Shown piece by piece: positions 26,338 through 51,142 of a stretch of DNA of 64,000 bases; the first letter of the stretch is position 1; each line of letters opens with the position of its first letter. The stretch lies in the NCBI GenBank assembly GCA_021030905.1, contig JAGFMI010000002.1, positions 1,674,001 through 1,738,000 on the forward strand, in the 5' to 3' direction. Below the pieces are notes generated by a model. The model searched no databases. It saw only the letters and a list, made by a program, of their open reading frames with translations, and was not told where the DNA came from. Source of the stretch: Pyrenula massariospora. Its lineage: Eukaryota > Ascomycota > Eurotiomycetes > Pyrenulales > Pyrenulaceae. Position numbers and translations under genes: made by a program.

Positions 26338-27231
26338 AAGCTTGGAGTGGGAGATCATCTTCGTGAACGAGTTGGCGTTCGGGGCTTACCGCGCATTCTC
26401 TATGAGCATCGGAGGGATGGATTTTTCATTAATTTTCTTCAGGTACCAGCCTCGATCGAGTCACTAACAAAACTTGAAATACTCGACTGCCGTGGTGGAT
26501 ATTTCGCATTCATCTAGACGCTTTGGCTGAACTTTCCACACCATTGCACTCTCTCTGGACGAACAGCTTCCGCTGAACAAGACTTGCTTTTAAGGTGGGA
26601 AAACATCACATCTTCTCCACTAACAGATCCTCCAATCCTGGATACATCTACTTCAATGCGTCCTATGAGCAGGTCAAGTAAAGTTTTCGCTATCCCCGGA
26701 GATATGCTCTGGATCCTCGGTCGTCACGTAGGATTGGCAGTGCTCGGTCTCACCAATGACGTCGAAACGATCAGATGTATTCCCTTTTGATGGAACTTAA
26801 GCCTGATATTGCTAATTCTTTACTCGCATCCATTACATACTAAGGTACCTGCTAATCTAGGGTCGAGAAAGCGGCGCCGTGGCGACTTCCCTCGTGGTTG
26901 CCAAGCAATGTCCATCGTCCCTTCCTTCCCTTCAGCATCACTTCACATTCTCGTTACTCCCTTACTCCACATAGTAAACATTCATTTTTCGCTTTTCGGA
27001 CGCTCAGGTCTTTCTCATCTAAAGCTGTCCGATCGTGTACCATCAAACTGCTCCAATCTCCGCGTTTGGTGGCCTGAAGGCGCTCTCACGGAAGACCACT
27101 CGCTCGAACCTCTATCAAGTCGGCTATTCAGCCACTTTGCGGTTTCCTTTACCTCTTAAAATTTTGCGCGTCACGCCCTCTTACTTCCCGTGTTTTCCCG
27201 CTCCGACAGGACGACGAAGACATTGGCAAAC
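26338..27231. other. Intergenic, upstream of the NFX1-type helicase
   Basis: Contains the cupin 3' flank and the helicase promoter. Small open frames (for example 26584-26790) have no motif. The last 200 bases include a pyrimidine-rich leader near 27110-27200. Confidence 0.45.
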
Positions 27232-30200
27232 ATGACGACCTTTATCCGAGCGGCGCCGGCGTTGTTGCATCAATCCTCAAAAGACCGTCCGGACAAGTCT
27301 CGGCCTGTGATCTCCACCAAGATTGCGAATTGTTTGAGCCTCAATGCAAGATCGGCACATAATGGATTCGACGATGATGGGCCCGGCAATCTCAGCACAA
27401 TGGGTGCGCGCCATGACAATGACCATGTTCATGTAAAGAATATTAGAATTCTACCTACGGTGGACGAATGTCTATCCGTCTGTCGTCCCCCCTACGTCCC
27501 CAAGAAGAGCCTTTGCGAAAGGCATCATCTGGAAGCAGGACCGTCGCGGCTACTGGATACCTTGTTCCGTCAATTACGATACGAAAGTACCGAGAGCTTG
27601 CGAGACATTTGCTATACTGCAGCTCAGGAGCTTTATCTTGATATGAGTCCTGAGTACACGCCGAACTATCTACACCGCAAAGAAACACGGGCTGAACGCC
27701 GGTATTTTGCCTATCGAAATGCCCGCATCGAAGACATGTTCGCAGATGAGCAGCAAGGTCTTCTTGTTCAAATATCGTACGACTGTCCGCAGTCAATGAA
27801 GGAGAACAAGATGAGGGATTCTGGCCGCCTGGAGGAGGGGATGCTCTGCGCTTTGATTGGAATTGATGAACACAAGGCTGAGCTTTCAATAACCTTTTTT
27901 GAGATTAATCTGCGCCAGTCTACTTTTGCGATGGATCCAAAAGGGGGAGGGAATGGCCTCCGCGCTGCTATTCACGTCTCATTCGCTGAGAAAGATAACA
28001 CTGACGACCTTCTACGTATGGTGCGCCACGTACAAGGTATCGATGCAAGCCGCTTTGTATTAGTTGAGTTTCCGGGTGCTCTGTACGCAGGTTTCTATTG
28101 GCATTTGAAAAAATTGCAGGAGCTCCAGACCACCGATATCGCCTTCTCCACAACGGTCGCGCCACGTCGAAATGCGCAACCGGTGCCCGTCGTATCTATT
28201 ACAGAACCAAGTCTTCAATATGAGAATTCGGTACCCCTTGTGCTAGCGCCAGCCTACACGTGTCATCCGAAATTCGAGGTTGACCTGAAGCCCGTGACTT
28301 CTATCGAACAAAAACTCCCTATCACTGCCTTTGAGGCCGGGTCACGTGAAGCCACTATCGACTTTCTTACAGACCACAGCTCTCTCGATGAAGCTCAAGC
28401 TGTGGCGTTCTGTGAGACTATGACTCGCGAAATAGCTTTCACTCAGGGCCCACCTGGAACTGGAAAGACTTTCCTTGGTATCGCTCTCGCGAGAACCATT
28501 CTTGCTTCTCGTGTACCGCCTCATCTCAAGCCTATCCTGGTGACCTGTCTGACAAACCATGCGCTGGATAGTTTCCTAAAGGGGTTGGTTGACGCTGGCG
28601 TCAATAAAATAGCTCGTATAGGCAGTGGCAGTCGTGAAGAGTGGACTAAAGGACATCTACTGAAGGCTATTTCCAGGAAAACGAAGCTAAAGGACACAGA
28701 GTTTCATGACAAGAGGGACGCGGAACTTAAGAGACGGGATGCTTTCAACGAAATGAGAGGTCTAAGCGAGGCACTGATTGCAGAGCGCAAGACAGGCATG
28801 ATTAGCTGGTTTGCCGTGAGAAACTACCTGAAAGCTTCTCAACCGAGGATTTATGAACAGCTCGTAACGGATATCGACTCTCCCCATGCCCAGTCTTTTG
28901 CATTTCGGTATTGGGCAGGTGGTGGAGATCTACGTCATCTGAGGCAGCTGGAGGTGGAGCTCAAGACCGTCATCGACCAGGACGCCCGCCGAGAAGTCGA
29001 CTTGGAGGACGTCCAGACCGCACTGAATAAGATCTCCCTTCATGCGGAGACCACCAGTGCCGATGCCGAATTCAATGTCTGGCGCCATGGTCTTGAACAA
29101 CGACGGACATTAATCAGAGATTGGGGAAAGCAGGTCGATCCAGATGTACTCTCGCATGAATTGGTTGATCTCCAACTAGATCACTTCGACGCCGATCAAG
29201 CTTTGCTCAATGCTCGCCATTCCATCGATGCCAGGTGTCTCTCTGATCAGAACGTTATTGGAATGACGACTACGGCTTGTGCTCGAAACTATGCGCTGCT
29301 GAAAAAGCTGGATCTGCAAGTCGTCATGTGTGAGGAGGCTGCAGAGGTTATGGAACCACACACGATCTGTTCACTCCTCCAATCAGTTGAGCACGCGATC
29401 TTCATCGGCGATCCGTTGCAACTCAGGCCTCAGGTTGAAGAAAAACTATTGAAGACAGAATTGGACATGGGCCCCGATTATCGACTTGATGAGTCGTTGT
29501 TTGAAAAGTTCATGCGGCCTAGAGATCCGGACATCATGCCGATGCCGGTTTCCCAACTGGCAATACAACGCAGAATGCATCCAAGCGTCGCTGAAATCAC
29601 TCGTTTGACATATCCATACTTGATCGACCATTCGCTAACAGCTTCCCATCCGCCCACAGAAGGCATGGCTCATCGCATGTTTTGGTTTCATCACACTGCA
29701 ACCGAGACGTCACCCCTGAATTCTGTCACCAAGTCGTACTCCAATGACTTTGAAGCTGCCATGATCTTCGGACTTGTCAAATACCTTCTCCGAGGAGGAG
29801 CGTATGCCTTGGGGGAGATAGCTGTTATCACAGCGTACAAGGGCCAGCTTGCGCTGCTCAAGAAGATGTTCAAGGGAACATGCCCGGTGTGGCTGCATCC
29901 GAAAGACCGAGAAGCTCTTATTGAGGATGGATCACTCGAAGAAACCTCGAACGAGGTAAGGCAAGAGGTAGCGATGTCTGAAATGTTGCGAATAGCCACC
30001 GTCGATAACTTTCAAGGCGAAGAGGCGAAGATAATCATCATATCTCTTGTTCGAAGCCTCAAACCTGGGTTTTTGGCAACTGAGAACCGAGTCAATGTCA
30101 TGTGCAGCCGTGCTCGAAATGGACTCTATATATTTGGCAATACCGAGCTCTTTCAGCGTGTTCCGATGTGGCGCAAGATTGCACGAGTCTTCCAGAATCA

Positions 30201-35045: not shown

Positions 35046-35528
35046 ATGATCCCAAGCAACTTCTTCTGGGTACCTAGGGACAACCCAAAACCAATACCGT
35101 ACGATCCCGGCCGCCCCTATCGATTGCAAGAATGCATTAAGCGGGATGGTCATTGCTTTATTGCCCATACATACAGCAACGCATTCATATATGGAGCACG
35201 TAAGTCTTTCTGCACTTGCTCGTGGATGCAAGCCTGGGCTGACACGTCCCTCCTTTTAGCACGCGCCGAGTGTATCTCATGTCACGAGCCTTACAAGGGT
35301 TCTCAATTCTCGTGCAAATGGCCTAATTGTTGGGTCAAACATCTTTGTGTGAACTGTCGGCTTTGTTCCGGGTGGCACCAGTATTACGACATTTGCCCAG
35401 TGAGTGAGCGGCCAGTAAATACGGAACACCACGGTATGAGAGCAGACTGTCAAGATCAGATCTTTTACTTGCCCCCAATCCGAAAGGGATGGCAATTTTA
35501 TTGGTCTAGGGGAGAATTGGGGCGTTAG
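35046..35528 (+). CDS. Array member 1: single Cys/His-module protein (2 exons, 140 aa)
   Basis: The first gene of the Cys/His array; function unknown. Exons are 35046-35199 and 35260-35528. The 60-bp intron has a perfect GTAAGT donor and a TCCTTTTAG acceptor. Its length is a multiple of three and it lacks an in-frame stop, so retention would give a 160-aa variant. The module reads GHCF, then AECISC, then FSCKWPNCWVKHLCVNC. This is the pattern H-x-F, CxxC, FxC-x4-C-x5-C-x2-C. There is no signal peptide. The N-terminal 30 residues are Pro-rich and the C-terminus is not recognisable. A decayed copy near 56.1-56.4 kb shares GHEF and AHLCVRC with it. Confidence 0.7.
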   Translation: MIPSNFFWVPRDNPKPIPYDPGRPYRLQECIKRDGHCFIAHTYSNAFIYGARKSFCTCSWMQAWADTSLLLARAECISCHEPYKGSQFSCKWPNCWVKHLCVNCRLCSGWHQYYDICPVSERPVNTEHHGMRADCQDQIFYLPPIRKGWQFYWSRGELGR

Positions 35529-36348
35529 TTGCGTTCTATTTAATTTCGCCGTGCTGAGCTTTGGGGAACTTCGCTTTTAATGTTGGGAGGCGTGAACCTG
35601 AGACGTATTGGCCTTCGAAAATTGTTTGATTCGGTTCGTTTGGTTTATGGATGAATAAAGATTTACAGCCTTTTCTTTACCCTTACTGGAAACCAGTAGT
35701 CGCGTTGCCTGTGCTCTCCATCTACGCTAATGAAAGCTTCGTACGCTGTGCGTCGTCAACGCGAGTCTTGTGAATCTTCGAACTCTTTCATCTATCACAT
35801 CTTCGCTAATTTTCTCTACTGTGGAGCATTTATTCTGTCACTGTACGCCTTCGAGACACTGACTCATCTACTTCCCCGATGTCATTGAATTGTTGCTTCG
35901 CCCACTGGTGCTCGGGCCGTGCGTCGAAGATTCCATCTCGATTGTGTTCACAGTCCACCTTCCATACTGCGGAACTTGACACTACTCATTCACAACATCC
36001 TTCGTGGCAGACTTTGTGGGAAGCGCAATGATCGTTGCAAAGCACATTCACAACGGATGTTAGTCATCGTCTACGAGCAAAAATATCCTTGCTCCTCTCA
36101 GGCTACGACCTTCTTGACGTTCGTCTGATCCTACCACTCGAATTTCGGTTTCAGACCGACATAGCACCCCTTGATTCATACCGCTTTTAATTCTCGAATC
36201 TGTCCGTGCGGCAGAACGCTGGCTCAGCAGCCACGATACTACGGCGACTTGGTTCACTTACAATGGCATCACCTCTTGGCTTCATCTGCACTCGTTGCCT
36301 CCCTTCCAGCAATACAACCTCCCCATTTACAACCCCAGATTTTCTAAA
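35529..36348. other. Array spacer 1-2
   Basis: Non-coding by eye. Small frames (such as 35919-36128) have no module pattern. The 200 bases before the next ATG contain no clear TATA box. Confidence 0.45.
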
Positions 36349-36780
36349 ATGCCAGCGCATTTCCGACCAGATATTACGCCTCCAGCACAAAGACCTATCC
36401 TCCCTCCCGGCGACATTCTGCAACATTGGCGAGTGCTATTACGCGAGGGAAGGTGCAAGGGAGAATGCGCCCGCAAAGAGGGCCACGAGTGGTTCACGCA
36501 CGAGTACACCAAGGCGTCGGGCAATTCTCCCGCTGTTTACTGCCGGTTCTGTATTGCTCATATCAATGTGACTGGGGCAGCGAAAGTCTACTACTGCCGG
36601 GGTTTGCCGTGTCGGAAATACCAGCTCTGTGAAGTGTGTAAGGAGTATATTGAGAAGTCTTGTGGGGATGGCAGGCGAGGGGAAGCAGAAGCAGAGCAAG
36701 ACCGTGACTTTAGTGATGATAAAGTGCCTGAGGTGGATGCAAATGGGGAGATTGTTGGGGGGAGCGAAAAGCTAGAGTGA
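36349..36780 (+). CDS. Array member 2: single Cys/His-module protein, 143 aa
   Basis: The ATG at 36349 is used; the frame opens 18 codons earlier only from a TTG. The module is complete: RCKGEC, GHEW, VYCRFC, YYCRGLPCRKYQLCEVC, matching C-x3-C, H-x-W, CxxC, YxC-x4-C-x5-C-x2-C. A GDG turn follows (SCGDGRRG), as in members 3 and 4. The N-terminus is Pro-rich and the C-terminus acidic. No signal peptide or membrane segment is seen. The function is unknown; zinc binding is inferred from the ligand pattern. Confidence 0.72.
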   Translation: MPAHFRPDITPPAQRPILPPGDILQHWRVLLREGRCKGECARKEGHEWFTHEYTKASGNSPAVYCRFCIAHINVTGAAKVYYCRGLPCRKYQLCEVCKEYIEKSCGDGRRGEAEAEQDRDFSDDKVPEVDANGEIVGGSEKLE

Positions 36781-38515
36781 TCTGGATCAGAGTGATCGTG
36801 AATGATCAGACACGTGGATGCTGTCATATCTTTGAGATCATTCGGTGTCGGGGCGGAAATTGTGGTCGGGAGGGGATTGGAAGTCGGACACTCGCTTGAG
36901 AAATGGGATCCAGTGAGACATTTTATTGTTGCGGTGACCTAGAACTGATTTCAGTCCATCCATAAGCTATTCACTGATACCTATGCCTGATTCCAGCCGA
37001 TGATGTTTCTTCCACTACCACCCTCTCCGATTGTGCTACCAGCCCGTCATTCACAACACCTGGGAATACAAAGTAGCCTTGACCCGACTTCCTGCTCGCC
37101 GTTGATTCCTTCACTTGCCCTCTTCCCTAGCCCCGTCATGCAACAAAGGGCTCATGACACAATACACCATGTCGACCAGCGCGTGAGTCGCCGCGCTCTT
37201 GACTAGCCGGAGCGGTGTAGAGTCGCTTGCTGCGCTGCTCTCATTTTGAGGCTCTCATCCTCTACCTTAGCCCTTTAAGAAACTCTAGTCGTCCTTTCTA
37301 CAATCAGAGCTCCTCTTCTCAAGCAATACATCTTGGTACGCTGTTGCTCTCACCTCCATTACCGATCCGGGTTGAAGCTTGCTGCATCATCCTTAGAGTT
37401 TTAGCCCTCAGGGCAGAAGCCAACACCCGCAGTCCTCGTGCCGAAGAAGATGCCGACACAAAAACCACAGACAGCGGTGAAAACGAGCCACATAGTAAGA
37501 TTCAGCCCAATACCAAACCGACGACTTATGTCTGACTAGTGTTCTAGAGCGCAACAAACAAGGAACTGATCTGCTCTTGAAAGAATATTGCAAAACCTTG
37601 CGGCCACAGTCGGGAAAAACATGACTGGGATGGCCAACTTCTTGACACCAATTCGATGGAAAAACCTCTTTCTGATATGCTGTACATATCTCTTCGCTCT
37701 GGCGGCCTACAGTACTACAGGTGTCGCTAAAGCTGGTACACAGTGCAATTTCTGTGCACAAAACATGCGCAAATCATGAGTATTGTGCTTGATCATGATG
37801 ATGAGAACGAGGAGGTGGAGAAGTACACGAAAGAAGGCTGGATAATTCGTGGATTGCTCTTGGGAGAGCTGACCCGTGAAGAATTGGGGAGGCGGGGTCA
37901 TTCTGAGGAGTTAATAAGTGTACTTGGGTTCTGGAGATGAAGGAGCAGATGGAGGACAAGCAGTAGTGCTGTTGGAGAGCAGGCTATTTGGACGAGGGAT
38001 GAGGTCTAGGGTTGATGTATGGTGATGGAACGGGTCGTGTAGATCTACGTCCAGTCGTTAGCGGCGTAGATCTGATTGATGAAGCACACCCTCAAATTTT
38101 ACCCCTTGAAATGATTATCTTAGCCTTTACCCTGATTTGATCCAACCTTCTCGTAAACCTTTGGGAATTCTCACTAATTTTTGTAGTGCTCAATGTTCAC
38201 ATGTTATTTTGTTTAATTTAATGTGAAAACAAGTCTGAACTTTGAAGATCTTCATGACGGCGAGACAGGATTCACTGGGATTGTGGGAAGATTTTCGAGG
38301 ATAACTTGCCTATCTACACTTGCTAGAATTGGTTGATATGAGTCAGGCATCGTGAAGTTTTAGGTTCCAGTCCATTCTGTGACAATCTCGAGGCTGATAA
38401 CTCTACAATCTTATGAGTGCACGAAGATATCAGTCATTAGCAGACAAGCATTGATATAAGAATCTGAGCCCCTCCATATCCACATTTTTTCTTTCAATAT
38501 TTTCCACCTTCTCAG
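36781..38515. other. Array spacer 2-3 with a decayed copy
   Basis: Mostly non-coding and AT-rich. It holds a decayed array copy at 37588-37940 (listed). A TATAAG element near 38455 precedes the reading frame of member 3. Confidence 0.45.
37588..37940 (+). pseudogene. Decayed array copy
   Basis: In one + frame the sequence reads PCGHSREKHDWDG and later LQYYRCR, a stop, SWYTVQFLCTKH. This lines up with the C, H-x-W, YYxC and LCxxC parts of member 2. The CxxC pair is lost, one later Cys has become Trp, the last Cys has become His, and there is an in-frame stop. No ATG or intact start remains. A charged tail (EEVEKYTKEGW) follows to the stop at 37938-37940. Confidence 0.5.
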
Positions 38516-39674
38516 GTTTGACATCACGGGTAGAACGTATAAAATTTGTCCTGATTCATATGATAAGTTTGCGGATGCTGACACTCCGTGCACTGGCTCT
38601 CAAACCAGTATTTTCGAAGCCTGTTTTGACGACGATACCGCTACGAGTGTTCCTGGAAATCTTGATCACCAGGAGCTGGAAAGAATTTACCAAAGATCGA
38701 CCCGGGGTCGGTTCAAATTCGAACGTCAAGATTTTAAAAACATAGAATGCCCTCGATCTTGCCGAAACACGGAATTTGGGCATTTTTGGGGGTTTGTGAT
38801 CGTCCAAGGTGGTCGTCTTGAAGAAGACGCTACGTGCGACTTCTGCGATGAGGATGTCGTGAAGGGATTTTACTGCTGTATGGACGTGAAGTGCAGCAAA
38901 TTTGGAACGATCTGTGGAAGATGCAAGAATAACATCGGTCGTTGGGGCGATGGACAACTCAATATGGGAACAGTTCACGAAATTTGTCAGGACAATTGCT
39001 CTGATTCCGTAGCAGGCCACGACTGGGAGGTTACGCCGGTCTCTGATCTTCCGAATAATATATCTCCGAGTTGCTTCTTACGCGGTTGTGATATTGCGCT
39101 TGCTTTCTTCTGCTGCCGCAGAAAGGACTGTGACAAGTACAAGATGATGCTTTGCAAGAGATGCGTAGAGAAGATAATCGAGAATGGAGATGGGGCATCT
39201 TGGATATGTAAGGGTTTGGGAAAATCACTGTCGAAAAGAGAGCGTGTGTTCAAGGAGTATGAGGAAACCCTCGCGAAAATACAAGAAATGAAAACCAAGG
39301 AACAAGCGGGTAACGCCAATAAGAACCAAAGTAATGAGTTTGATGCAATTGATGAATTCCACTCTTTTAGCAAGAACTCTCAGAATGCTACTGGATATGA
39401 AGTTAACGAGGAGTATAGCGGCTTTGACCGACACGACCTTGAGGCAGGTGATAATGAAAACAACGATACATCGACGCTCGGTGCCGGTCCCTGCCTGAGT
39501 GAAAATCAAATCGCATCTCCTAACCATATCATCGAGGCAATCGGAAATTGTCGTATAACTGAGCTTAGTGATGACGAGACCTCTTCAAGCGATGCCGACG
39601 TTAAAGATGTAGGAAAGACTCTTGCTCGAACAAAGTTGAACAATCAAGTTGTTACAGTTTATAGACACAACTGA
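38516..39674 (+). CDS. Array member 3: double Cys/His-module protein, 5' end unresolved
   Basis: An open frame runs from 38460 (after a TAA) to 39674, but its first in-frame ATG is at 38880, inside the first module. The upstream 120 codons are real: ELERIYQRSTRG and ECPRSC then GHFW match member 4 in order and spacing. Module 1 is ECPRSC, GHFW, CDFC, FYCCMDVKCSKFGTICGRC. Module 2 is ICQDNC, GHDW, CFLRGC, FFCCRRKDCDKYKMMLCKRC. Each ends with a GDG turn. The C-terminal 150 residues are acidic and Asn/Ser-rich. The start may lie in an upstream exon joined at the CTCAG acceptor (38511-38515). One in-phase candidate exon is 38338-38351 (ATG, donor GTGAAG). Otherwise the start codon has been lost. 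Confidence 0.6.
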
Positions 39675-40303
39675 ACCGGTACTATATGGGTAATGCGGAA
39701 GTCATGAAGAAAGCCCCGCTTAAAATTTCCTAGTACATTGATTTTATCTTAAATTAGAATGTTTAGACTCTTTCTAATTTGAATATGTTAATTGACTACG
39801 GCCAGCGCCTCTATTTTCTATGTAGTTACATCTTTCTCACCAGACCGCTGCTAGCTTCTGGTCGAAGCGATGTAGTTGACTCATGGTGAAAAAAAATTCT
39901 AAGTCTTCGAGAAAATAGGCGTAGATCGTGGTGAAGAAAATTGACCAAACGAATAGATCCCGTACATCCATTGAAACATGGAAGAAGCTCTCAGCGAAAG
40001 AACTTCGTTAATGGTAAGCGGCGTCGATCATGCAAGAGCTGATTCAATCTCAAGAAGAGTCATCGAAATGGCGTGGAAGATATGTCTACTTATTACCTCG
40101 AACCATACAATATTGCGGTTCAATAGCACAATGAGTCAAGAACGGAATGAGCCTTTCGTAGGAGCCAGTCATCAGCACAAAAGCATGGGTATAAATGCCT
40201 CGACTTTCCTGGGGTCTTCCTGATTCTTCTCATATTTCTGCATCTTCCCGCCTTCCCAGAAATCTGATCTTGACACAACATAAATATACTGTGCTATATT
40301 AAA
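39675..40303. other. Array spacer 3-4
   Basis: Non-coding by eye. A TATAAAT element (40190-40196) within GGGTATAAATGCC is the likely core promoter of member 4. Confidence 0.45.
40190..40196 (+). promoter_or_regulatory. TATA box of array member 4
   Basis: TATAAAT lies 114 bp upstream of the ATG. The wider GGTATAAATGC recurs upstream of array member 10. Confidence 0.55.
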
Positions 40304-41353
40304 ATGAGCTCTGAAAGGAATACCGAGAGACGTAAAACATATCATCCGACCTTCAGAATTGGCCTTGCCTGTCTTATCAAGCCTGAAGATTATCCTGACA
40401 CGGAGGAGCCACCTGAGATTACGCCTGCCGAAGATCTTCGAAAGGCTTGCTCTGAACACAAATGGGCCAAGTCTGTTCCTAGAAGTTCCGACCACATGGA
40501 TTTAGTGAAAATCTACGAAGAGTCGCGAGGAGAGCCCCGAAAGCTAGATAAGAAGAGATTCGAATATGAGTGTAATCGCCTCTGTACCGGATCAAGCACG
40601 GAGCATAAGTGGGCCATTGTGTCCTTCTCTCGCTATGGGAAACCTTTTCGCGAAGATGTCACGTGTATGTATTGTGCACGTCATATCGAGCTCGAATTCT
40701 TTTGCTGCTTGAGAAGGGGATGCAAGAAGTTCGCCGTCATCGATAAAAGTTGCAAGATGACTATGGAACAGTATCATCGCAGAAAAAGTCTTGAAGAGAA
40801 GTGTAAGGAAAGTTGTTCAAATGGAGAGGAAGGTCATAAATGGGGTAAGAAGAGCATCTATGACTCTGGAGACGACAATGCCTTGAAATGCCATTTACAC
40901 GAGGGCAAGATTGTTAGAAACTACTTTTACTGTCAAAGAGAAGATTGTGGAAAGAATCCCGTCACGTACTGCGGACACTGGACGAAGAAGGTTATTCGAG
41001 CAGGAGATGGTCTTCGTGCAGCGCAACTAGGCACCTCCTATGGACAGACTAAAGCACAAAAAGAATTAAATGAAAGCGGCCACATCCGTGTCGTCATCTA
41101 TACCAGCGATCGAGAAATGCCTCCGGGAGAAAAAGACATTAAGGAGACTGGAGAAGTCGATGTAGCCGAGCTATCTGACCCAGAGTTGAACAAAAAAAAG
41201 CTGGGAGATATTGGAGATGCACAGGGACATGTCAATGTGGAAGGTGTCGCTGACCAACAGGAGCATGCTGAAGAAGGCAGTGCTAAGGAGAGAGGAGATC
41301 CTCCTGAAGGTGAAGAGGTTGTTGAGGTAGAGCAACATGCTAAAGATACCTGA
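40304..41353 (+). CDS. Array member 4: double Cys/His-module protein, 349 aa
   Basis: A single exon from the ATG at 40304. A partial extra module (ACSEHKW) is followed by two modules. The first has ECNRLC, HKW, CMYC and FFCCLRRGCKKF; its last pair is degraded to a single Cys. The second has KCKESC, GHKW and FYCQREDCGKN, but its CxxC has become CHLHEG and its last pair ends CGHW. So neither module keeps all ligands. The order and the GDG turn match member 3, its closest relative. The C-terminal 90 residues are Glu-rich and disordered. There is no signal peptide. Function unknown. Confidence 0.7.
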   Translation: MSSERNTERRKTYHPTFRIGLACLIKPEDYPDTEEPPEITPAEDLRKACSEHKWAKSVPRSSDHMDLVKIYEESRGEPRKLDKKRFEYECNRLCTGSSTEHKWAIVSFSRYGKPFREDVTCMYCARHIELEFFCCLRRGCKKFAVIDKSCKMTMEQYHRRKSLEEKCKESCSNGEEGHKWGKKSIYDSGDDNALKCHLHEGKIVRNYFYCQREDCGKNPVTYCGHWTKKVIRAGDGLRAAQLGTSYGQTKAQKELNESGHIRVVIYTSDREMPPGEKDIKETGEVDVAELSDPELNKKKLGDIGDAQGHVNVEGVADQQEHAEEGSAKERGDPPEGEEVVEVEQHAKDT

Positions 41354-42759
41354 TCTGGATAACATCTCTTTGGTTCTTGGATGTAGTTGTTTGCACTTAT
41401 GCGAAATAGCTTTAGAATATTCGGGTTGGCAAAGCACACTCGTTGATTTGATGAGACTTTCTTGCTACTTACGAAGTTCAATTTGCCGGAGGAAAATTAG
41501 TTTCATTTTGATTTTATTCGAATGCGACATTCTGTACGCGCTTTTCAAATCAGTCAAGGCATCTGTTGAAGAATTCCGGACTTTCATTATTTCTGTTGGT
41601 TTGTAAAAGTACCTGGGAGGAAGTAAGTTGTTAATCTTAGTACAAGCCACCACTCAAGCATTCCAAGATAAGTGATAGAGCTCTCTTTAAGCTAGGAGGT
41701 TATGGGAGATCCACGAGCATGTAATCAGCGTGTCTATTGTTCGAAGTGATACATTAGGCTCGTTGAGTGCCTAGACACACTAGCGAGGAGATAGCATTAT
41801 CAGTGTGATTGCCATTGTGCCGATCTTATGTGAAGACTTGTTAGTATACTGAAGATCTGTGGGTCTAGAATGAACCCCTAGAATGTTGGACGAAAATTCG
41901 ACGTCTGAGTGCATCACATTGAAGCGCTACCAGTGTTGTAGAAACTACACGCGAAAGAATTTAAAACTCTTGCTGTTAGCCTAGGGGTAAAGAGGCAGCC
42001 GAGGCAGAGAAGCTTCAGACTCAGTGTTGTTGACACAGGGTAAAAGTCATCACAGATGAAGTGAAGCTAAATCGTTGAAGATAAAAATTGAAGTTACACC
42101 TTAATAAGCGCGCATGAAGGTCTTTGCGCTAGGAATGAGGGCTGCGTGCTGCAATAAGTGAATACCGTCTTGTGCAGGAGATTTGAGTCATTTTGCTCGG
42201 GTCATGCAACGATGCGAGTCCCAATGGCTGCGGGTATAATGCCTTCACATCTGTAGTAGACACGTGAAATGGTAATGACATGAACAATGAGCCAATAGAC
42301 AATGCAATTGAACCGTCGAAGGGTCTCTAAGGGGAAGAAAGTGTTGTGAGGTACCCCGAGTGGCTCTCCTGTCGAGTACATAATTAGCGACTCAATACAG
42401 GTGAGATCCTATTTGGTCTCCACCGGGTCTTTCTCAAATTTGATGAACTCAACTTTTCCAATATTGCTCCTCGAAAATATCAATTGGCTGCGCGGTCACA
42501 TGACTCCAGATTCCGAACAAGTTGGCATCAACACTGGAAGCTGATAGAAATACAACCCGCTCCTTCCGTATGTCGAGTCGACTAAAAGTCGGCAAGAGTG
42601 ACCAAAGAGCGAAAAGATTCAAACCATGAATGCTTCGGCAACTGATTTTGTCTTCCTCTGCACTCTTCGTCATCATCTATCGAGAGCTAGTATTTATCGC
42701 ATCGGTATAGCTTTATTACATCATCCGACCATTTATGAGCCTTAGTCTCTCTTTTCGCA
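41354..42759. other. Array spacer 4-5
   Basis: The longest empty stretch inside the array. It is AT-rich with no protein-like frame. A GGGTATAATGCC near 42232 resembles the TATA region of member 4, but lies more than 500 bp from the next ATG and may mark a lost copy. Confidence 0.45.
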
Positions 42760-43678
42760 ATGCTTCCGAAACAGACAGTGCAACAGAACACAGCACAACC
42801 AAGTGCAGCACAACCAAGCCGAAAACGAAAAAGCTCAGCACGATCGAGCCCAGCACATTCGAGGCCAGCAAAATTTACCCTGATGCGGCAAAGCCTAGTA
42901 CAGCGATGCCTGGCACGACTAGGCCCAGAAGAACGAAGTCTGATACAACCAGACCCAGCACGATCGAACCCAGCGCAACACTACCCTATCACTGAAATGC
43001 CCCGAATACTTGAAGAGGTGGAATTTGACTACATCGATGAAATTGCCTCAGCACTGGATGAGAGATTGAGAAATGAATACCACATCAGTGAGGATGACTT
43101 GGCAGATGGCGATCCTTTCACTGCCTTAACGCCCATGGAACGAGGAATGTGGCTCGTTGCGGAGACTTGCTGCCCCGCAAAGCCAGAAGAACCTCAACAG
43201 CTGGGAGATGTTACCACCGGGGGTATGTGCGTAGATTGTCCCTTCAAGGAGAACAATTCCTGGTACTGTACGGATCCTGGGTGCATCTTCACCCTGTGTC
43301 ACAAGTGTCTTGTTGCGTATGTGAAGGTTGCTGTTATGTACAGGGCTGGAGTGAGACTTGAACAAGGTAAGTGATCTTTCACTTTTGAGAAGGTGGCATT
43401 TTCTTCCGTAATAGGGACAGACTAAGGGAGGTGTGCCGGCAGGTACCCTCGGCGATTTTTGTCAAATGAAGCTAATCTGTATCTATGCAGAGCCTTGCGA
43501 CGTGGAACAAGTCATAGAAGAATTCGATAAAGATGGAGGACTCTCCAATTTCATCGGTTTTCACAATGAAGAGGCTAGCGAAAGGCTTAAGCGGGCACGG
43601 AACAACTTTATGCTTAGGGGGCGAAAGCACTTACTATTTCCTTCATTTTTGGACGGGGGAGCATTGGAGAAGTGTTGA
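42760..43678 (+). CDS. Array member 5: Cys/His-module protein with a repeat-encoded N-terminus (2 exons, 264 or 280 aa)
   Basis: Exon 1 is 42760-43366 (GTAAGT donor). Exon 2 starts at 43491 (acceptor TATGCAG) or 43443 (acceptor CGGCAG). Both keep frame and differ by 16 codons. The downstream choice gives EPCDVEQVIEEF, which best resembles member 6. The first 80 residues are read from a 15-bp minisatellite. The core starts at the second ATG (42997, MPRILEEVEF), which might be the true start. The module is GGMCVDCPF then WYCTDPGCIFTLCHKC; the H-x-W part is not recognisable. It is most similar to members 6 and the 44.6-kb decayed copy. No signal peptide is seen. Confidence 0.62.
42792..42986. 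repeat. 15-bp coding minisatellite, about 13 diverged units
   Basis: Units such as AGCACAACCAAGCCG, AGCACGATCGAGCCC and GGCACGACTAGGCCC follow each other in 15-bp register. In the frame opened by the ATG at 42735 they encode STTKP-like pentapeptides, but that frame stops at 42995. In the frame that leads into the Cys module they encode Ser/Ala/Arg-rich sequence. Confidence 0.75.
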
Positions 43679-45454
43679 GGTTGAGACGGAGTTCATCAAA
43701 TGCCTGATTGACTTATAGTAGTGAAGATTGGGAGGCTAGCGAATGTCGCTCACTTACAGTATCTGGATGAGAAGCGCAGAGCACTTGCATATAGATTCCG
43801 CAATGAAAGCTTCTAAAAGGTGTCTATGGGTGCAAGAGTCTGCTGAAAGTACTTAGTAGTAGACTTTATTATTTTGTAAGCTCGTAAACAAGGTAGTGGC
43901 AGAGCGAGGTCAATGTGTCGTTGACTGTGTCCCCGGAAGAATTCAATGTATGTATCTTCCTTACACGAGGTGAGTCCTCGACTTGCAAAATCTTGATTAT
44001 GAGTGAGCCGTCTCATGTACGAGTTACTCATATAGGAGACATTCTCTAAGTTGCTTCAATTGTCCGCCAAAAAATGCTTACAGGGTCGGTGAAGGATAAC
44101 GGTGGGAGTCAGTACAGGCGCCAATTTGAGCCAACACTAGACATGAAGACCTGATGAGGGCCTGAAAGTTATTGACCATTCACAGGCATGAGAATCATTA
44201 TTCAGCGCACACAACGTTATGTGTCATACTCGAGTTTCAAATTGTCTGGTCGCCTATCGTAAGAACATCGGGCGCTTTCAATGCTTTTATATTCTTGCTC
44301 AGCCCATACAACAAGTAGCTTTGACAATATAGCTTAAGTCTTTGATATCATGAGCTAGCACCTGCAATGGCTAACCTAGACTTAAAACGCTCCGATAATG
44401 TTACGGAAATCCGAGAAACGCTATGCGTCTACGAGATAGCCGAGAACAAACAAAGAAAGTTCAAAGTGAAATAGATATAATGATGGAGCTAGAGTGCCGA
44501 ATAGGGGACGACGACGACAAAGACCTTGAGTGTTCGACTTTAGCTGAGGGTCAAAGCTCGAATTGAGAGCCTGCGAGCTCATCGTATTTGTTCCCTGTCC
44601 GGACCATCCTGAAGCGTTCCACGGGCTGAGGCCACTACATGATAATGCCGGCGGGATCGGAGGTTGTGTGGATTACCCCTTCCCAGACGAGGAAGCAAAG
44701 ATTTACTGCGGTGCCGAAAGATGTAAGGTGGCTATTTGCAATATCTGTTGATCGTGCTTATGGGGGGCTTCGAAGGGTTACTTGGCGTTCAGAGGATGGG
44801 AAGGAAGCAATAAAGTCGAATTAGATATCAGAAAATACAAGCAGCGATAATACGACAGCTGCAAGCAGGCGTCTTATTGAGGAAATTATGAGGGGACTTG
44901 GCGCTAAACGGCCGTCGTAGGCGTCTTGCGTGTTTGGGATGAAAGCATATTGAAATTTCTTGCTGTTTCTCTATTGATGAAGTCTGTTTAGAGTGACATT
45001 TCTGTTTAGCGATGAATTCATTGGTTAGCATTTAGTATGGGGTGAGAGAGAATTGGAACTCGAATATTTGTAGAGTGTTCGCTAATGGACATTGATACGT
45101 TTAACGGGCACTGTTTCCGAGTTAAGGCCAAATAGTGCATCGCTATTCACGAACGCCTTCGTCAGTAAGCTGATGCTAAACAGTGAATTCAATTGAAAAT
45201 GGCAATATTTGATATGTGACGAAATCAATGGAAGAGCAAGCGTTAATGTGTAGTCCCTACATAGATATTAAAACTCATAGCTTCAGCTCACGATGTGTCA
45301 ACATGCAGGTATACAAATCTTCCTTAAAGCAACCTCTATCGCTCCTTTTGGACTTATCAACAGTCTGAAGGATAAATTTTCATCTCATCATCAACCCAAA
45401 TTTTTGTAGCACCTAAGTCGTTTGGTTTTATTTCTCTGTGTCTCACTGCTGAGA
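43679..45454. other. Array spacer 5-6 with a decayed copy
   Basis: AT-rich, non-coding except for the decayed copy at 44563-44818 (listed). A possible TATA-like TATTAAA lies near 45266. Confidence 0.45.
44563..44818 (+). pseudogene. Decayed array copy related to member 5
   Basis: A frame without an ATG contains GGCVDYPFPDEEAKIYC then GAERCKVAICNIC and a stop. It aligns with GGMCVDCPF ... WYCTDPGCIFTLCHKC of member 5. The second Cys of CxxC is Tyr. The frame stops directly after the last CxxC, and the same frame continues beyond the stop with WGASKGYLAFRGW. It has lost its start and exon 2. Confidence 0.5.
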
Positions 45455-46016
45455 ATGTCCGCCCAGCTCCCCGTCCCAAACAACGTTAACGCGGTCAGCG
45501 AACACCTGAAAAAGCTGAACGTCGAGCAGAAGAGGGATCTTGAAGAAATACTCAATCGTATCTGGAAAAACAGATTCAAGATCGACGATTTCAACCGCCT
45601 GGTGGATCCAGGCTTATTGAAAAGGCTTATCGGCCGGGGCAGCGAACTCATGGCGACGAAAAAATGCTACGATGAATCTGCCACATTCCATACTTTTGAT
45701 CGCCACGCTGGCGAATACTGTACTGGAGCGAAACACATACACCGGGCGGAAGCGGAGTGGGCTTGTCAAGCCGCAGGATGCGACGCAAAATTTTGCCACA
45801 GATGCTTCTTTCCGTATGAGTCCTCTAGTGTTGGTTACACAGTGGGAATCTATGCTCAGGGTGAGATTTACTCAGGGGTCTCAGTCTTTTGTAACATACT
45901 GACGCTATATTTGGCTAGGCAACGAGGAGGTGGCCGAGGTGACGAAGCGTATTCCTGAAGCCTGCAAATCGCCGACAAGTCTGCCTCTTGTGGTCGAAGA
46001 TTGCAAGAAGACGTAG
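45455..46016 (+). CDS. Array member 6: Cys/His-module protein (2 exons, 167 aa)
   Basis: Exons 45455-45860 and 45919-46016, with a 58-bp intron (GTGAGA donor, TGGCTAG acceptor). The ATG at 45455 is used; the open frame begins upstream only at a TTG. The N-terminal 70 residues are helical-looking and charged (VEQKRDLEEILNRIWKN). The module is irregular: KCYDESATFHTF, EYCTGAKH, WACQAAGCDAKFCHRC. Its last part matches WYCTDPGCIFTLCHKC of member 5. Exon 2 encodes a short tail with two more Cys (EACKS, VEDCKKT). No signal peptide is seen. Confidence 0.65.
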
Positions 46017-46906
46017 CCGCATACAAGGATCTATCGGCTTGAAATTTGAATTTCAAACTTGTTCTAACCATCGACGACGGATTTTGTGGTATGAGTGTTT
46101 ACTCTGTCAAGCTCGAGAAGCATGGCAATGGGCTGGGGGAGACGATGAGCAATCCTATGGCATTTCCTTGCGCTTCTGAAAGATCCAAGAATATTCACTC
46201 TTTTAGACAGTTTGAAAGTCTTGAAATAGATTTCTTCCCCCGATAGAGCTGCTCACAAAGCAAAATTTCAGTAATGCCTTGACAGCCAGGTCCAGTACTT
46301 TGCAGAGTGCGAAGGAAATCTGCTAGATTCTTCTCGTCGTCCGCCGTAGCTGCCCCTGAGTCACGGATGCCAAGAGTGCCCCACTAGACGCAACAATACC
46401 GAGGGCGAAGTAGAATATCCCAGCCACGGTTCACTCTATGCTTGACGACAGTGTAGAAGTGAGCACTAACGCTGCTTCTTTCGCTTGAAGATGTGAGGAC
46501 GTAGTTGCGTAATGGCAAAGGCTAGACTAATGTTCTAAGTGAATAAGCAAAGCTCTGTAAGCCGTGCGCAGCCTCAGCGCGCCCCATTTGATAGCACCCA
46601 CCCTCGAAATTCACCTTCTCGGCAATCGTTTGGTGCAACTTGTAGACTTCGCCTTCAATGTTTGAGAATGCGTCATCGAATTCACCGATTGACTCTATGA
46701 CTCGACGCGGGAGCATAGGTCTAGGGGTTGGATACATAAAGGTGAGCATTGCTAAGAGGCTGCATTTCCTATCCATTTCTCAAGCCAGTACGTAAGATCT
46801 TTCGAGAACTTTTGAGCCTACATATAGAGCCTCTAAACGCTTTCAAATAGGGGAGAGCGCACATCCTTCGACCTCAGACCGTCAAGAGCAAACGCTATCT
46901 AGTAAG
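46017..46906. other. Array spacer 6-7 with a minus-strand decayed gene
   Basis: Apart from the minus-strand frame (listed), nothing coding is seen. An ATATAG element near 46819 lies about 90 bp before member 7. Confidence 0.45.
46199..46776 (-). pseudogene. Decayed minus-strand gene, family unknown
   Basis: One minus-strand frame starts with an ATG at 46776 and reads protein-like (RRVIESIGEFDDAF, EGEVYKLHQTIAEKV). It hits a TAG after 84 codons. The same frame then continues, through a second stop, into DSGAATADDEKNLADFLRTL and GCQGITEILLCEQLYRGKK. The protein-like character on both sides of two in-frame stops suggests a decaying gene. An intron could remove part of it, but I found no convincing borders. 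It is the only minus-strand gene-like frame inside the array. Confidence 0.35.
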
Positions 46907-47467
46907 ATGGCCGAAAGAACGGTAGTATGCGATGCCAACACTGACGACGAATGGAAGAAGACGAGGAAGGAATTGCTCAAAAAGTCTGAGAAAGCATGGC
47001 TGGATTACAGGGAAAGCCTTCGGATAGGAAACATATGCGTCGGCGGCAAATACAACTCTCACAGAGTCACGGAAAAGACCAGAGACCCGCATGACCCTAC
47101 TACCCATTTCTGCAAGAGAAACAATAGGCCTATCGCAGATGGTGAAAAGGTCTACGTCTGCGAGAACGAGAGTTGCGGGACTCGCACGATTTGCGCCAAA
47201 TGTTACGAAAACTTCAGGCTTATCGCAATTGCCAATGACAGAATCTACGAAGATATGAAATGCACAAAGGCGAGCGGGAAGCATACGATGTATATAGATA
47301 AGCCAGGGAAAGATAAGCGATGCCGTATGTGCGATTTAAAGGACGGACAATCAACTGCCTATACCTGCAAGACAAAATACTGCATCATTGCCCAAATCTG
47401 TCCTAATTGCTATAATGGACTCCATAAAGACGGCCTCGTGGAAGACAAGCTTGTTGGATCGCCATGA
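46907..47467 (+). CDS. Array member 7: double Cys/His-module protein, 186 aa
   Basis: A single exon from the ATG at 46907. A charged N-terminus (EWKKTRKELLKKSEKAW) precedes two modules. Module 1 has NICVGGKYNSHRV, HFC and YVCENESCGTRTICAKC, with one Cys of the first pair missing. Module 2 is complete: KCTKASGKHTM, RCRMC, YTCKTKYCIIAQICPNC. Both are followed by similar acidic linkers, and the second aligns with module 2 of member 9. There is no signal peptide. Function unknown; zinc binding inferred. Confidence 0.74.
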   Translation: MAERTVVCDANTDDEWKKTRKELLKKSEKAWLDYRESLRIGNICVGGKYNSHRVTEKTRDPHDPTTHFCKRNNRPIADGEKVYVCENESCGTRTICAKCYENFRLIAIANDRIYEDMKCTKASGKHTMYIDKPGKDKRCRMCDLKDGQSTAYTCKTKYCIIAQICPNCYNGLHKDGLVEDKLVGSP

Positions 47468-48220
47468 AAAACCAGTAGTGGTTGGCGAGACTTATTCCTT
47501 TTTCAATCAAGTATTTATCGGGTCTATTGGAACGACGAACACTCATTTTTAGCCAGTTGTGGATTCTGTTGAGATTCTAATCTCTCTTTATAATCTGTTC
47601 TTGGTGGCTTTAAGTGATGGCCTTCCGGTCTTTTGGCATGGACTAATTTTATGTATTACTAGGAGATGATGTTCATAATAGCTTAAACATAGCCTATTAC
47701 TATTTAGATAGGTTACGAGCAAAGGCTGGCAAAGCTTTAATTTCAAACCATATATGATAGAACAAGATCTCTTTGAAGCTGTAGTCCAGTATTAGTCTCC
47801 CAACCGGTTTCTAAGGAATTGAATCTGGCGTATACTCTTGTAGGGGATTATATGTTTCTTTGTGACTCCAACTCATGGCTGAGACTTTCATTAGAAAATA
47901 TTGAAGAGTCGAGATCTATGAGTGAAGTAACTTCATCCACGGCCCTTTGTCCACCAAATAACACGTCAACGACAGGAAATTGTCACCAGACAATGTGAAG
48001 AGTTGCAGCTGGGGAATTGAAGAAGTGGCATTCGTAGAGCGATGAGTCCTCCTGATCCAGTCATAGAATGTAGCTTGCTCAGAATACAAATACTTTGATG
48101 AGTGAACGAAACTATCTCTTGTCCCATCATTTTTCGCCATCCCAACTGTTGAGTAAGCTGCAAACAAATCCCCCCGACTGTTGACCATCAGTTTTGCACT
48201 CGATTACGAAAACCTTCAAA
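47468..48220. other. Array spacer 7-8
   Basis: AT-rich, no module pattern on either strand, no clear TATA box. Confidence 0.45.
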
Positions 48221-48487
48221 ATGTCAGACACGGACGACGTCACCCTGATACCATGCTTTAAAGGAGAACAAAATTCTATCCACCTTTACACCATACCAAT
48301 GGCAGAATATCGGCCAGGTGTCAAATGTGCACACTGCGGAGAAGAAATTCCAAGCAGGAAAGATCTTTGGGTCTGTAACAATCAGGTTGGGCAAGACGAG
48401 CCGTATTGTGACGCAAAGTATAGCTGCAAAAAGTGCGCAGACAAGTGTAAAGCTAAGGGAATGGGAACTTTCGTCCATGGAATTTGA
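48221..48487 (+). CDS. Array member 8: single Cys/His-module protein, 88 aa
   Basis: The shortest intact member. The ATG at 48221 is used rather than an upstream TTG. The module is PCFKGEQNSIHLY, KCAHCGEE, LWVCNNQVGQDEPYC, then KYSCKKC. It has a longer loop between the two middle Cys than other members, a feature shared with member 10. The protein is almost only the module, so this gene defines its minimal size (about 75 residues). No signal peptide is seen. Confidence 0.68.
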   Translation: MSDTDDVTLIPCFKGEQNSIHLYTIPMAEYRPGVKCAHCGEEIPSRKDLWVCNNQVGQDEPYCDAKYSCKKCADKCKAKGMGTFVHGI

Positions 48488-49289
48488 AAACCACTAAAAT
48501 TGTACCCCCCACCACTTGAGCCTTCTTCATTCGAAACTGACTGAGAATAGTTTATTGACGAGCATGGACGGCTTCCTCGACTTAGGGATGTGAGAATGAG
48601 AGTGTATGGTCATTGAGGGATTGTCTTCATGATACTTTATGGTTAACATATTACAAGAAAGTCGTGATCAGACCTGCGTTGGAGGAATTCGGGAACTCTG
48701 GACTTTCTCCAAAGAGGCCCCTAGTTAGCTATCCGACTTGATAGGAATCAATCTTTAATACTGTCTTGCATTAGAAGGCCACTTTTATTCGCTCTTCAAT
48801 TCACTGTGTGTGAGTCATGCACGTGTGCCGGTCGTGAAACCTACTTACATGACGGAGGCGGTGGAGCTTCACTGCGTCACAGACTGTGCTGCTGATCAGA
48901 AAAGTAAAGCGCGCTGAGTCATCGGCAGTGTTTCTAGGGATTGAATCTAGCCTTCAAGAGTTGTATAGAAGTAGTGTTTTAGGAGACCTAGTAAACGCGT
49001 AGGTGTGAATAGGGAGTAGGAACGCGCATTCAAGCTTGTGCGGGAAGATACAATGACGCAATGACTAACTGCGTCAAAAATTCGAGTCACCCACTTCGTG
49101 GCTATAAAGATCACTCTCCAATCTAAGGGAAGCTCGAATTCGCAAAGAGTAAATCGATCACACACAACTTATATTAAGTCTCTGTTGAACATCGCCGCCT
49201 GTGCCAAGACATCTGAGTCCTATACGAAGCTGCGCATAGTTATATTGCTATAGTCTGACATTTCAGATCGTCCAGTCGGCCTCAAAATC
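48488..49289. other. Array spacer 8-9
   Basis: Non-coding. A TATAAA (49103-49108) is the likely core promoter of member 9. I checked a weak tRNA-like box near 48940 and rejected it. Confidence 0.45.
49103..49108 (+). promoter_or_regulatory. TATA box of array member 9
   Basis: TATAAA lies 187 bp upstream of the ATG at 49290. Confidence 0.45.
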
Positions 49290-49760
49290 ATGGATCCGGA
49301 GTATTTCCAGTCTCAGAAGTACCTGGCTTGCAACTATGGAAGATATCACCAACACGACTTCAGACTTACTGAAGCCGCAAAGTCGGGGAAACAAAAGTGC
49401 TCATCCTACAAGCATGAAGAACGACCGGACATCGAACGTGGTTACAGGTGCCGCAACAACGGAGATCATACGTGCTTCGAAAACATCTGCTCTGACTGCT
49501 ACAAAGACATGGACGCAAGAGGCCTTGTAAAGAAGGACATGTCAACTGAGCAGTTGAGAGAGAAATACAAATGCCAAACCGACGATCAGGTGCACAAATT
49601 CGGGCGTACCTACGTCACGAGTCCAGGTGAATGCTACGTTTGCCACGTAAAGGAGAAGCTGGGCAGAAGGTGCAAGATTCAGGGATGCCCCTTCAAATAT
49701 GTGTGTCAGAAGTGTGCTGAGAGTCTGCAAGGGGATAAGTTGGCAATATATGTCGACTGA
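49290..49760 (+). CDS. Array member 9: double Cys/His-module protein, 156 aa
   Basis: A single exon from the ATG at 49290. Module 1 has ACNYGRYHQHDF, KCSSYKH (second Cys of the pair lost) and YRCRNNGDHTCFENICSDC. Module 2 is complete: KCQTDDQVHKF, ECYVC, RRCKIQGCPFKYVCQKC. The two modules are joined by a linker (KDMDARGLVKKDMS) resembling the one in member 7, so the two-module form probably predates the split of 7 and 9. No signal peptide or membrane segment is seen. Function unknown. Confidence 0.74.
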   Translation: MDPEYFQSQKYLACNYGRYHQHDFRLTEAAKSGKQKCSSYKHEERPDIERGYRCRNNGDHTCFENICSDCYKDMDARGLVKKDMSTEQLREKYKCQTDDQVHKFGRTYVTSPGECYVCHVKEKLGRRCKIQGCPFKYVCQKCAESLQGDKLAIYVD

Positions 49761-50800
49761 TAGGACATGTCAATGGAAGTGACGGTCTTCCTATGACGCG
49801 GGGAGTTTTGTGGATGCCCTTGGGGGCCATTGGGGCAACAGATTACACCGTGCTATTCTAGGTGGCGGACTTTCTTTTCCTAGCATTGCATCATGTATTG
49901 GCAATCTCTGGACCGTCTGTGGAAGCCTGCTCGATACCATAGCTTGTTTGGACCCTTGTGAATGTCATTCTATTGGATGAAATGGATATAGATTTCTTGA
50001 GCGTAGAAATGATGCGGCAACTCTTAACTATATGTGGCCTGAGTTGCTGTCACCGGAACATTTTCTATAGACTTGGAATAAATGCTCAAACCGATTGCTT
50101 ACCTAGAAACATAATAGCTGGAACACGTCTCTTGACGGAGTTGATTCTTCACAGCTCTCCCACAGGTGCGTGCAATACAGATGACTTGGGTCCTGCAAAG
50201 TGAAAATTCATCAGTGCAGATTCTTCCACCAATTCTCCATGTTACCTTGAAAGAATTCAAAATGAACGCGCTTCTTTTCACTGGCATGATGCTGACAACG
50301 GGAATTGTGTCAGACATAGTCTTATTGACTTCTCAGCAGGCAAGACGACGGATACGTAATGATGCCATGCACTAATGGCTTTCTTGAGAGTGTCCTGCTT
50401 CATTTCACAAGGTCCAATAGGTGACAGTCGTTTTCACAGTCGTTGTTATGATCCTAAGCTTTGAATCCATTCTTTCCTTCACGCCTAGCGGCTGTCTAAG
50501 TCCTTTCGGATGTGAAGTCTGACAGTCATTCATATGTTGAAGGAACGAATTGAGGTATATGAGTGATCTTTGTCCAGTCATAGCGATGCTAATGGTATAA
50601 ATGCATGCTTTATTTCCGTATCTTCCTGCTTCCTTTATCATATTAGCTTTGCAATCCTATCTGCCCTAGTTGTAACCATCATCAATAACACTAAGAGTGT
50701 GTGTTATCGCCTCATTGTCAATTCCTATCCTCTCAAACCCGACAACTTAATATCCCACTTTGTTCCTGTTGGATAGATATATCAACTACATATATCAAGC
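49761..50800. other. Array spacer 9-10
   Basis: Non-coding. TATAAAT (50596-50602) lies about 205 bp before member 10, within GGTATAAATGC. Confidence 0.45.
50596..50602 (+). promoter_or_regulatory. TATA box of array member 10
   Basis: TATAAAT in the context GGTATAAATGC, the same 11 bases as upstream of array member 4. Confidence 0.45.
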
Positions 50801-51142
50801 ATGCCGAATGACGAAACGAAATGTCTCGGAGGTAACCGGGTGAATCCAAAACGCGAACACCAGTTCCAGCGTGCCATACGAGCCGAGCGGGAAGACAATA
50901 TCAAATGCAAAAGCTGTGGCGAAGTCATTGAATCTATCGCCGAGCTCAGAGTCTGCGTTAATCATGTTCAAACAAGCAACTCAAACACATATCCGTTTTG
51001 TAAAAGACATTTCTGTTGCAAGCCCTGCGCGGAATCATTCGTTGTTCGTCGACTAGCTGACCAAAACACGTTGGATCTTTTTCGGGAGGATGTGGTTGAC
51101 CTAGTATGCTGTGACAAGTATTTTCTTCGTATAATGAGCTGA
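50801..51142 (+). CDS. Array member 10: single Cys/His-module protein, 113 aa
   Basis: A single exon from the ATG at 50801. The module is KCLGG ... EHQF, KCKSCGEVIE, LRVCVNHV ... YPFCKRHFCCKPC. It aligns with member 8 (KCAHCGEEI; LWVC; YC ... CKKC), including the long middle loop, and the two are the closest pair of single-module genes. A short tail with CC follows. It is the last intact member. No signal peptide is seen. Confidence 0.7.
   Translation: MPNDETKCLGGNRVNPKREHQFQRAIRAEREDNIKCKSCGEVIESIAELRVCVNHVQTSNSNTYPFCKRHFCCKPCAESFVVRRLADQNTLDLFREDVVDLVCCDKYFLRIMS

Follow-up and report, generated by a model that had tools for sequence, protein, structure and literature searches.

What are the Cys- and His-rich proteins that are encoded one after another downstream of an NFX1-type helicase in Pyrenula massariospora? 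The window, a 64-kb stretch of contig JAGFMI010000002.1 (assembly GCA_021030905.1), carries 14 copies of a Cys/His module in ten open reading frames (ORFs), all on the + strand between positions 35,046 and 51,142. An earlier note had described ten such genes, each with one or two module copies, and decayed copies among them, and our analysis bears out both statements: the array comprises 12 loci, numbered 1-12, of which ten are genes and two are decayed copies, in places 3 (~37,500-37,830) and 7 (44,548-44,751). The array and its module family are real. We propose, with moderate confidence, that the module is a ZZ/C1-class, RING-like binuclear treble clef with a circular permutation at the second zinc site, and that the proteins are small intracellular protein-binding scaffolds that arose by old tandem duplication.

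We searched all stop-to-stop ORFs of at least 50 amino acids in the six frames of the whole window for the module pattern and compared the counts with 200 residue shuffles of the same ORFs. The full eight-ligand pattern occurred in 6 ORFs, every one of them in the array (shuffle mean 0.015, maximum 1), and the core [YFW]xC-x4-C-x3-6-C-x2-C likewise in 6 ORFs, again all in the array (shuffle mean 0.03, maximum 1). An alignment of 11 modules from genes 2, 4, 5, and 9-12 (A3; without the modules of genes 1, 6, and 8) has the expected Cys or His in 82 of 88 ligand cells, which correspond to an N-terminal Cys, a His, and three Cys pairs, with the spacing C-x5-11-H-x12-19-C-x2-C-x9-15-C-x4(-14)-C-x4-7-C-x2-C. 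The His is present in all 11, and each module retains 6-8 of the 8 ligands at an identity to the first row of 14-31%. The C-x3-C ahead of the His, which the earlier note had included in its consensus, holds for genes 2, 4, and 5, while elsewhere in A3 there is a single N-terminal Cys. With eight ligands, two zinc ions per module are predicted.

In leave-one-out profile searches, genes 2, 4, 5, 9, 10, and 11 were recovered at E values from 1.5e-10 to 8.1e-4, the best of ten shuffled sets reaching 2.2e-4 to 8.4e-3 across runs. Genes 6 (0.003) and 12 (0.011) were beaten by the best shuffled set of the same runs (9.2e-4 and 6.6e-3, respectively), and gene 1 was not recovered. The partial copy at locus 7, absent from profile building, was nevertheless matched at E 0.0075. 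By these profiles, the module is secure in six of the ten genes and likely in two, and genes 1 and 8 are assigned by motif. Against the module profiles, the Cys-rich NFX1 region of this window is unremarkable, with 4 (A3) and 2 (a second module alignment, A2) of 30 shuffles scoring as high or higher, so Cys richness alone does not account for the module signal.

The array members match no known family at cut-off in Pfam or NCBIfam, the Pfam check covering the ten proteins (listed to E ≤10), the 11 modules (E ≤1), and three consensus sequences (E ≤10), with HMMER filters that discard most weak matches. No match to ZZ (PF00569) was listed for any of these three sets. C1 (PF00130) appeared below its cut-off for one of the ten proteins (E 0.019, 15.2 bits versus 26.5) and one of the 11 modules (E 0.02), and DC1 (PF03107) matched one of the three consensus sequences at E 0.62. 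A Rhodanese_C match of a consensus (E 0.00093, 19.9 bits, cut-off 26.9) and matches to Lentiviral_Tat, Defensin_1, and similar families were judged to arise by chance from Cys-rich stretches. No relatives were found for gene 9 in phages, for genes 4 and 5 in viral contigs, for genes 4 and 11 in genome contigs, or for gene 9 in viral contigs, in collections that are viral and prokaryotic and with contig scans that reach close relatives only; a search of the open-licence PMC literature, at the level of titles and abstract openings, returned no description of this family.

The ligand order itself is less isolated than the earlier note had supposed. It knew of no named family with this order, yet C1 and the DC1-type finger found in At1g60420 (1V5N) likewise place a His before the CxxC, and the longer spacing between the middle Cys residues, which it had counted against ZZ, is also found in the Ada2 ZZ of 9ynv, which has C-x4-C. 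Passages of the work of Kaur and Subramanian (PMC4999995, PMC4506424) place C1, TFIIH-p44, and At1g60420 among the RING-like binuclear treble clefs, with circular permutation of the second zinc site as the difference between them, and write the ZZ ligand set as CCCCCCHH (PMC4506424). The array module shares with C1 and TFIIH p44 the His ahead of the first CxxC, the H-x-[FW] start, the CxxC, and the aromatic-x-C knuckle. In C1 the last ligands are H-x2-C...C, and the two site-2 ligands are split between the termini. The array module, in contrast, would have both site-2 ligands at the N terminus and has a middle knuckle of C-x4-C; the C-terminal H-x2-C-x7-C feature of C1 is missing, as the modules end in CxxC with no kept Cys or His beyond it. 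With DC1 (C1_2) its ligand order agrees at the level of the 1V5N sequence, namely N-terminal ligands, the second of them in H-x-[L/W/F], followed by three pairs and nothing after them, although it has Cys in place of the first His and of the His of HxxC and no similarity above shuffles; which His of 1V5N binds zinc is our assumption. With ZZ it shares six Cys as three ordered pairs in A3, and the C-x2-C...C-x4-C-x5-C-x2-C core is that of the Ada2 ZZ. The cross-brace fold of the ZZ class suggested in the earlier note fits; the C-terminal H...H of ZZ is, however, absent and replaced by an N-terminal C and H. Of the 11 modules, none carries two His in the 25 residues that follow its last ligand, and 4 carry one.

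These likenesses can be accommodated by a permuted ZZ arrangement, which would account for both the ZZ-like core and the His-first order. The eight ligands, (C,H)-CC-CC-CC, would form two zinc sites per module: we infer that site 1 would consist of the first and the last CxxC and that site 2 would pair the N-terminal Cys and His with the YxC-x4-C pair. The last pair of ZZ (H...H) is C-terminal, and its equivalent in the module would have moved to the front, as in the 1V5N order. The fold itself would then not be of a new kind, and the unnamed two-zinc module that the family shares is probably a rearranged relative of the C1 and ZZ fingers, which bind other proteins. We do not assign the modules to C1, DC1, or ZZ proper.

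AlphaFold2 models of two modules from different subclusters, gene 4 module 1 (predicted local distance difference test [pLDDT] 66) and gene 9 module 2 (pLDDT 67), have the same order of elements: a strand after the His, the CxxC, a strand at YxC, and a helix from the last CxxC. A common fold of the modules, for which the earlier note had proposed structure prediction as a check, is consistent with this order. In a Foldseek search of the PDB, ranks 1-16 of 31 for gene 9 module 2 were ten C1-type chains, from the four proteins GEF-H1, MgcRacGAP, Munc13-1, and Raf1, and six that belong to TFIIH or repair complexes (top probability 0.92, query template modelling score [TMq] 0.56, E ≥0.57). The first four of 29 places for gene 4 module 1 went to a TFIIH-type chain and the cysteine-rich domain of Raf1, and rank 6 to the C1 of PKC theta; the TFIIH-complex chain matched is presumably p44/Ssl1. 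C1 domains and the TFIIH-type chain lead the structural matches of both models. A viral structure library gave 120 matches at E ≤10 and none at E 0.001. In hhalign comparisons of the A3 and A2 alignments against shuffles (30; 40 for 1V5N), a five-sequence ZZ set, the ARIH1 Rcat, and a six-sequence C1 set each beat 30 of 30 shuffles with both alignments.

Several observations weigh against the permuted ZZ/C1 reading. Confidence in the models is modest (predicted template modelling score [pTM] 0.53), they were built on 12 and 11 sequences that are mostly common to both alignments, and neither has a PDB match at E 0.001, so the agreement between them is not proof. Gene 4 module 1 gave a mixed list, with LIM at rank 5 and RING, PHD, and MYND chains lower. 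In the profile comparisons, a lone C1 sequence, that of PKC delta, is not set apart from shuffles (2 of 30 scored equally high with either alignment), and the printed A3 profile alignments never reach the N-terminal Cys and His. 1V5N is absent from both Foldseek lists and scores no better against the profiles than shuffled sequence does: with A3, 24 of 40 shuffles in local and 25 of 40 in global mode were as high, and with A2, 13 and 36 of 40. The top profile score, finally, belongs to the ARIH1 Rcat, which was picked after it had turned up in an earlier search.

The last two points make an IBR-like pairing possible. In that arrangement, the CxxC and the C-x4-C would share one zinc and the last CxxC and the N-terminal Cys/His the other; the core would be an IBR/Rcat-like or zinc-ribbon-type domain, kin to parts of RBR ubiquitin ligases instead of C1/ZZ. 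The spacing C-x4-C-x4-C-x2-C is that of IBR, the module and the Rcat/IBR of ARIH1 have CxxC...C-x4-C...CxxC in common, and the ARIH1 Rcat was among the best profile matches (E 0.21 and 0.89), with hhalign scores of 24 and 29 versus shuffle maxima of 15 and 14, the highest of those tried. The Rcat was, however, selected after the fact, RBR, Rcat, or IBR is named in no title of the two PDB Foldseek lists, and both models begin a helix at the last CxxC in treble-clef fashion. Furthermore, the zinc sites of RBR Rcat/IBR are sequential, and we know of no N-terminal C/H pair in them. We consider this pairing rather unlikely.

With the permuted treble clef as the favoured fold, a function can be suggested. 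Proteins of the C1/ZZ fold class mostly bind peptides, proteins, or lipids. The array proteins would most likely act as small scaffolds that grip a peptide or protein partner, the zinc core being kept while the scaffold surfaces would be free to diverge among copies after tandem duplication. An intracellular location, assumed in the earlier note, is supported by the absence of a signal peptide in all ten proteins: the top 11-residue hydropathy near the N terminus does not exceed 1.5, compared to 2.7 and 2.2 in two secreted-looking proteins of the window.

We then compared all modules with composition-controlled pairwise scores (91 pairs), and the results suggest three subclusters in array order, namely genes 2, 4, and 5; genes 6 and 8 (with partial copy 7, placed near gene 6 by reading); and genes 9-12. 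The first modules of genes 4 and 5 pair with Z 13.9 and their second modules with Z 17.5, and the nearest neighbor of the gene 2 module is the second module of gene 4 (Z 10.2). Genes 6 and 8 pair with Z 7.2, falling to 0.2 when Cys and His are masked. The modules of genes 9 and 11 correspond first to first (Z 6.9) and second to second (Z 6.0), and gene 10 pairs with gene 12 (Z 11.2; 6.0 masked), so that genes 11-12 probably arose as a copy of the two-gene block 9-10. The farther apart modules lie along the array, the less similar they are (r -0.35; 69 of 5,000 permutations as low).

The copies look old and would have been made by local tandem duplication. No recent duplication was seen, the sole repeat of at least 24 nucleotides (nt) between copies being one 26-nt pair at 77%. 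At residues that are identical between modules, the codon is changed in 72 of 147 cases (seven module pairs, one module used twice), as would be expected for old copies maintained at the protein level. Repeat-induced point mutation (RIP) was rejected as the source of the divergence, the composite index being negative in all 4-kb bins (-0.42 to -0.92). Two results count against the favoured explanation. When Cys and His are masked, Z ≥5 is kept in only 3 of the 91 pairs, so that it is the ligands that tie the subclusters to one another, and distance along the array has a weaker effect (r -0.18; 564 of 5,000 permutations as low). In addition, codon usage is uninformative about coding and fails to separate the array ORFs from other open frames, although the ORF frame scores above both alternative frames in 9 of 11.

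The same undistinctive codon usage would be expected if the array were a graveyard in which most copies are decaying and have no remaining function. The two broken copies, the degenerate modules of genes 1, 6, and 8, the missing start codon of gene 4, and a dip in GC to 0.447 across 38,001-52,000 (0.502 and 0.501 in the flanking 2 kb) all point in that direction. The dip carries no RIP signature, however, and seven genes (2, 4, 5, and 9-12) hold their ligands despite the low identity noted above, with silent codon change at conserved residues. General decay is unlikely in our judgment.

A further possibility is that the modules bind nucleic acid and that the proteins act as RNA-binding partners of the adjoining ZNFX1-like helicase. 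The match of the helicase to 9q9z (Table 1) supports the NFX1-type neighbor described in the earlier note, and 8 of the 14 modules are basic (pI 8.3-9.2). The link that the note drew between array and helicase amounts to adjacency in one genome, however, and the charge is not kept: module pI ranges from 5.0 to 9.2 and 5 of the 14 modules are net negative, and this lack of a common charge weighs against a shared nucleic-acid role. The cysteine-rich domain (CRD) of PiggyMac, which has a C1-like fold, is moreover reported not to bind DNA in a passage of its description (PMC8086355). We regard an RNA-binding partnership as very unlikely.

Least probable of these alternatives, and in our view very unlikely, is a descent from the Cys-rich tail of a piggyBac-like transposase (zf-Tnp_2, PF13842), with the array made of domesticated or orphan tails: the PiggyMac CRD is described in part of the same report (PMC8086355) as a His-first, C1-like permuted treble clef, it occurs in the Foldseek list of gene 4 module 1 (6zop, rank 25 of 29, E 6.7), and most of gene 9 module 2 is matched by zf-Tnp_2 (E 0.0036, 18.3 bits, cut-off 24; whole gene 9 protein E 0.049), but that CRD has a C-terminal His ligand (PMC8086355), the match is below cut-off and confined to one of 11 modules (the other ten unmatched at E 1) when the unrelated DUF7695 matches two of 11 (best E 0.016), the three consensus sequences have no match, and Pfam finds no transposase catalytic domain among the ten array proteins.

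The coordinates of the array and of the helicase are collected in Table 1. In gene 4, the 270 bases ahead of module 1 (38460-38730) are open but contain no in-frame ATG; this may reflect either an unseen upstream exon or a lost start. Genes 6 and 8 have candidate introns (43367-43490 and 45861-45918, respectively), each with a possible second exon after it, and by reading the gene 8 module lacks the second Cys of its CxxC. The 26-nt direct repeat (77%) joins the tail of the decayed copy at locus 3 (37806-37831) to the likely second exon of gene 8 (45921-45946), and both read NEEV. An overlapping 25-nt inverted repeat (80%) lies in the coding part of gene 5 at 40416-40453.

Table 1. Array loci and the neighboring helicase, with module positions and leave-one-out (LOO) profile E values
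Feature	Position	Strand	Length (aa)	Modules	LOO E	Remarks
NFX1-type zinc-finger helicase, ZNFX1-like	27226..32394	+				AAA_11, AAA_12; 9q9z (NFX1-type zinc finger-containing protein 1), E 1.6e-77
Gene 1	35046..35528	+	160	one, degenerate, ~35127-35390		motif seen
Gene 2	36349..36780	+	143	one, 36442-36672	2.3e-5	C-x3-C type
Decayed copy (locus 3)	37500..37830 (about)	+		pieces in different frames with stops		profile pieces E 0.85, 3.3
Gene 4	38460..39674	+		two, 38730-38954, 38970-39194	1.5e-10	
Gene 5	40304..41353	+	349	two, 40556-40789, 40787-41011	2.6e-9	
Gene 6	42760..43374	+	204	one, without His	0.003	marginal
Decayed/partial copy (locus 7)	44548..44751	+				stop directly after last CxxC
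Gene 8	45455..45958	+	167	one, degenerate, 45638-45838	3.7	unsupported alone
Gene 9	46907..47467	+	186	two, 47018-47239, 47243-47437	4e-9	
Gene 10	48221..48487	+	88	one, 48227-48466	1.6e-4	
Gene 11	49290..49760	+	156	two, 49305-49526, 49554-49742	8.1e-4	
Gene 12	50801..51142	+	113	one, 50816-51055	0.011	marginal

In the Cys-rich tail of the helicase (30226-31725), NFX1-type repeats are visible and Pfam lists no family even at E 10. Elsewhere in the window we found a HET-domain protein of the heterokaryon incompatibility type at 58377-59981, ~7 kb beyond the array (PF06985, E 1.1e-30), a CAP family protein with a hydrophobic N terminus at 6251-6904 (PF00188, E 1.8e-15), a Ras-family GTPase, and a protein kinase. 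The HET-domain protein, the GTPase, the kinase, and the two short candidate introns give the window the look of filamentous ascomycete DNA.

The position of the helicase hints at RNA surveillance or antiviral silencing. It is conceivable, although we think it improbable, that the array represents a diversifying fungal family whose undescribed module, with the outer pair of the second ZZ site moved to the N terminus, provides the recognition parts of an intracellular surveillance system together with the ZNFX1-like helicase. Even if its function should prove dull, the family merits a profile of its own so that such proteins can be named. Such a repeated and diverging set of intracellular zinc scaffolds, next to an RNA helicase, would offer a tractable entry point in the search for fungal surveillance genes.

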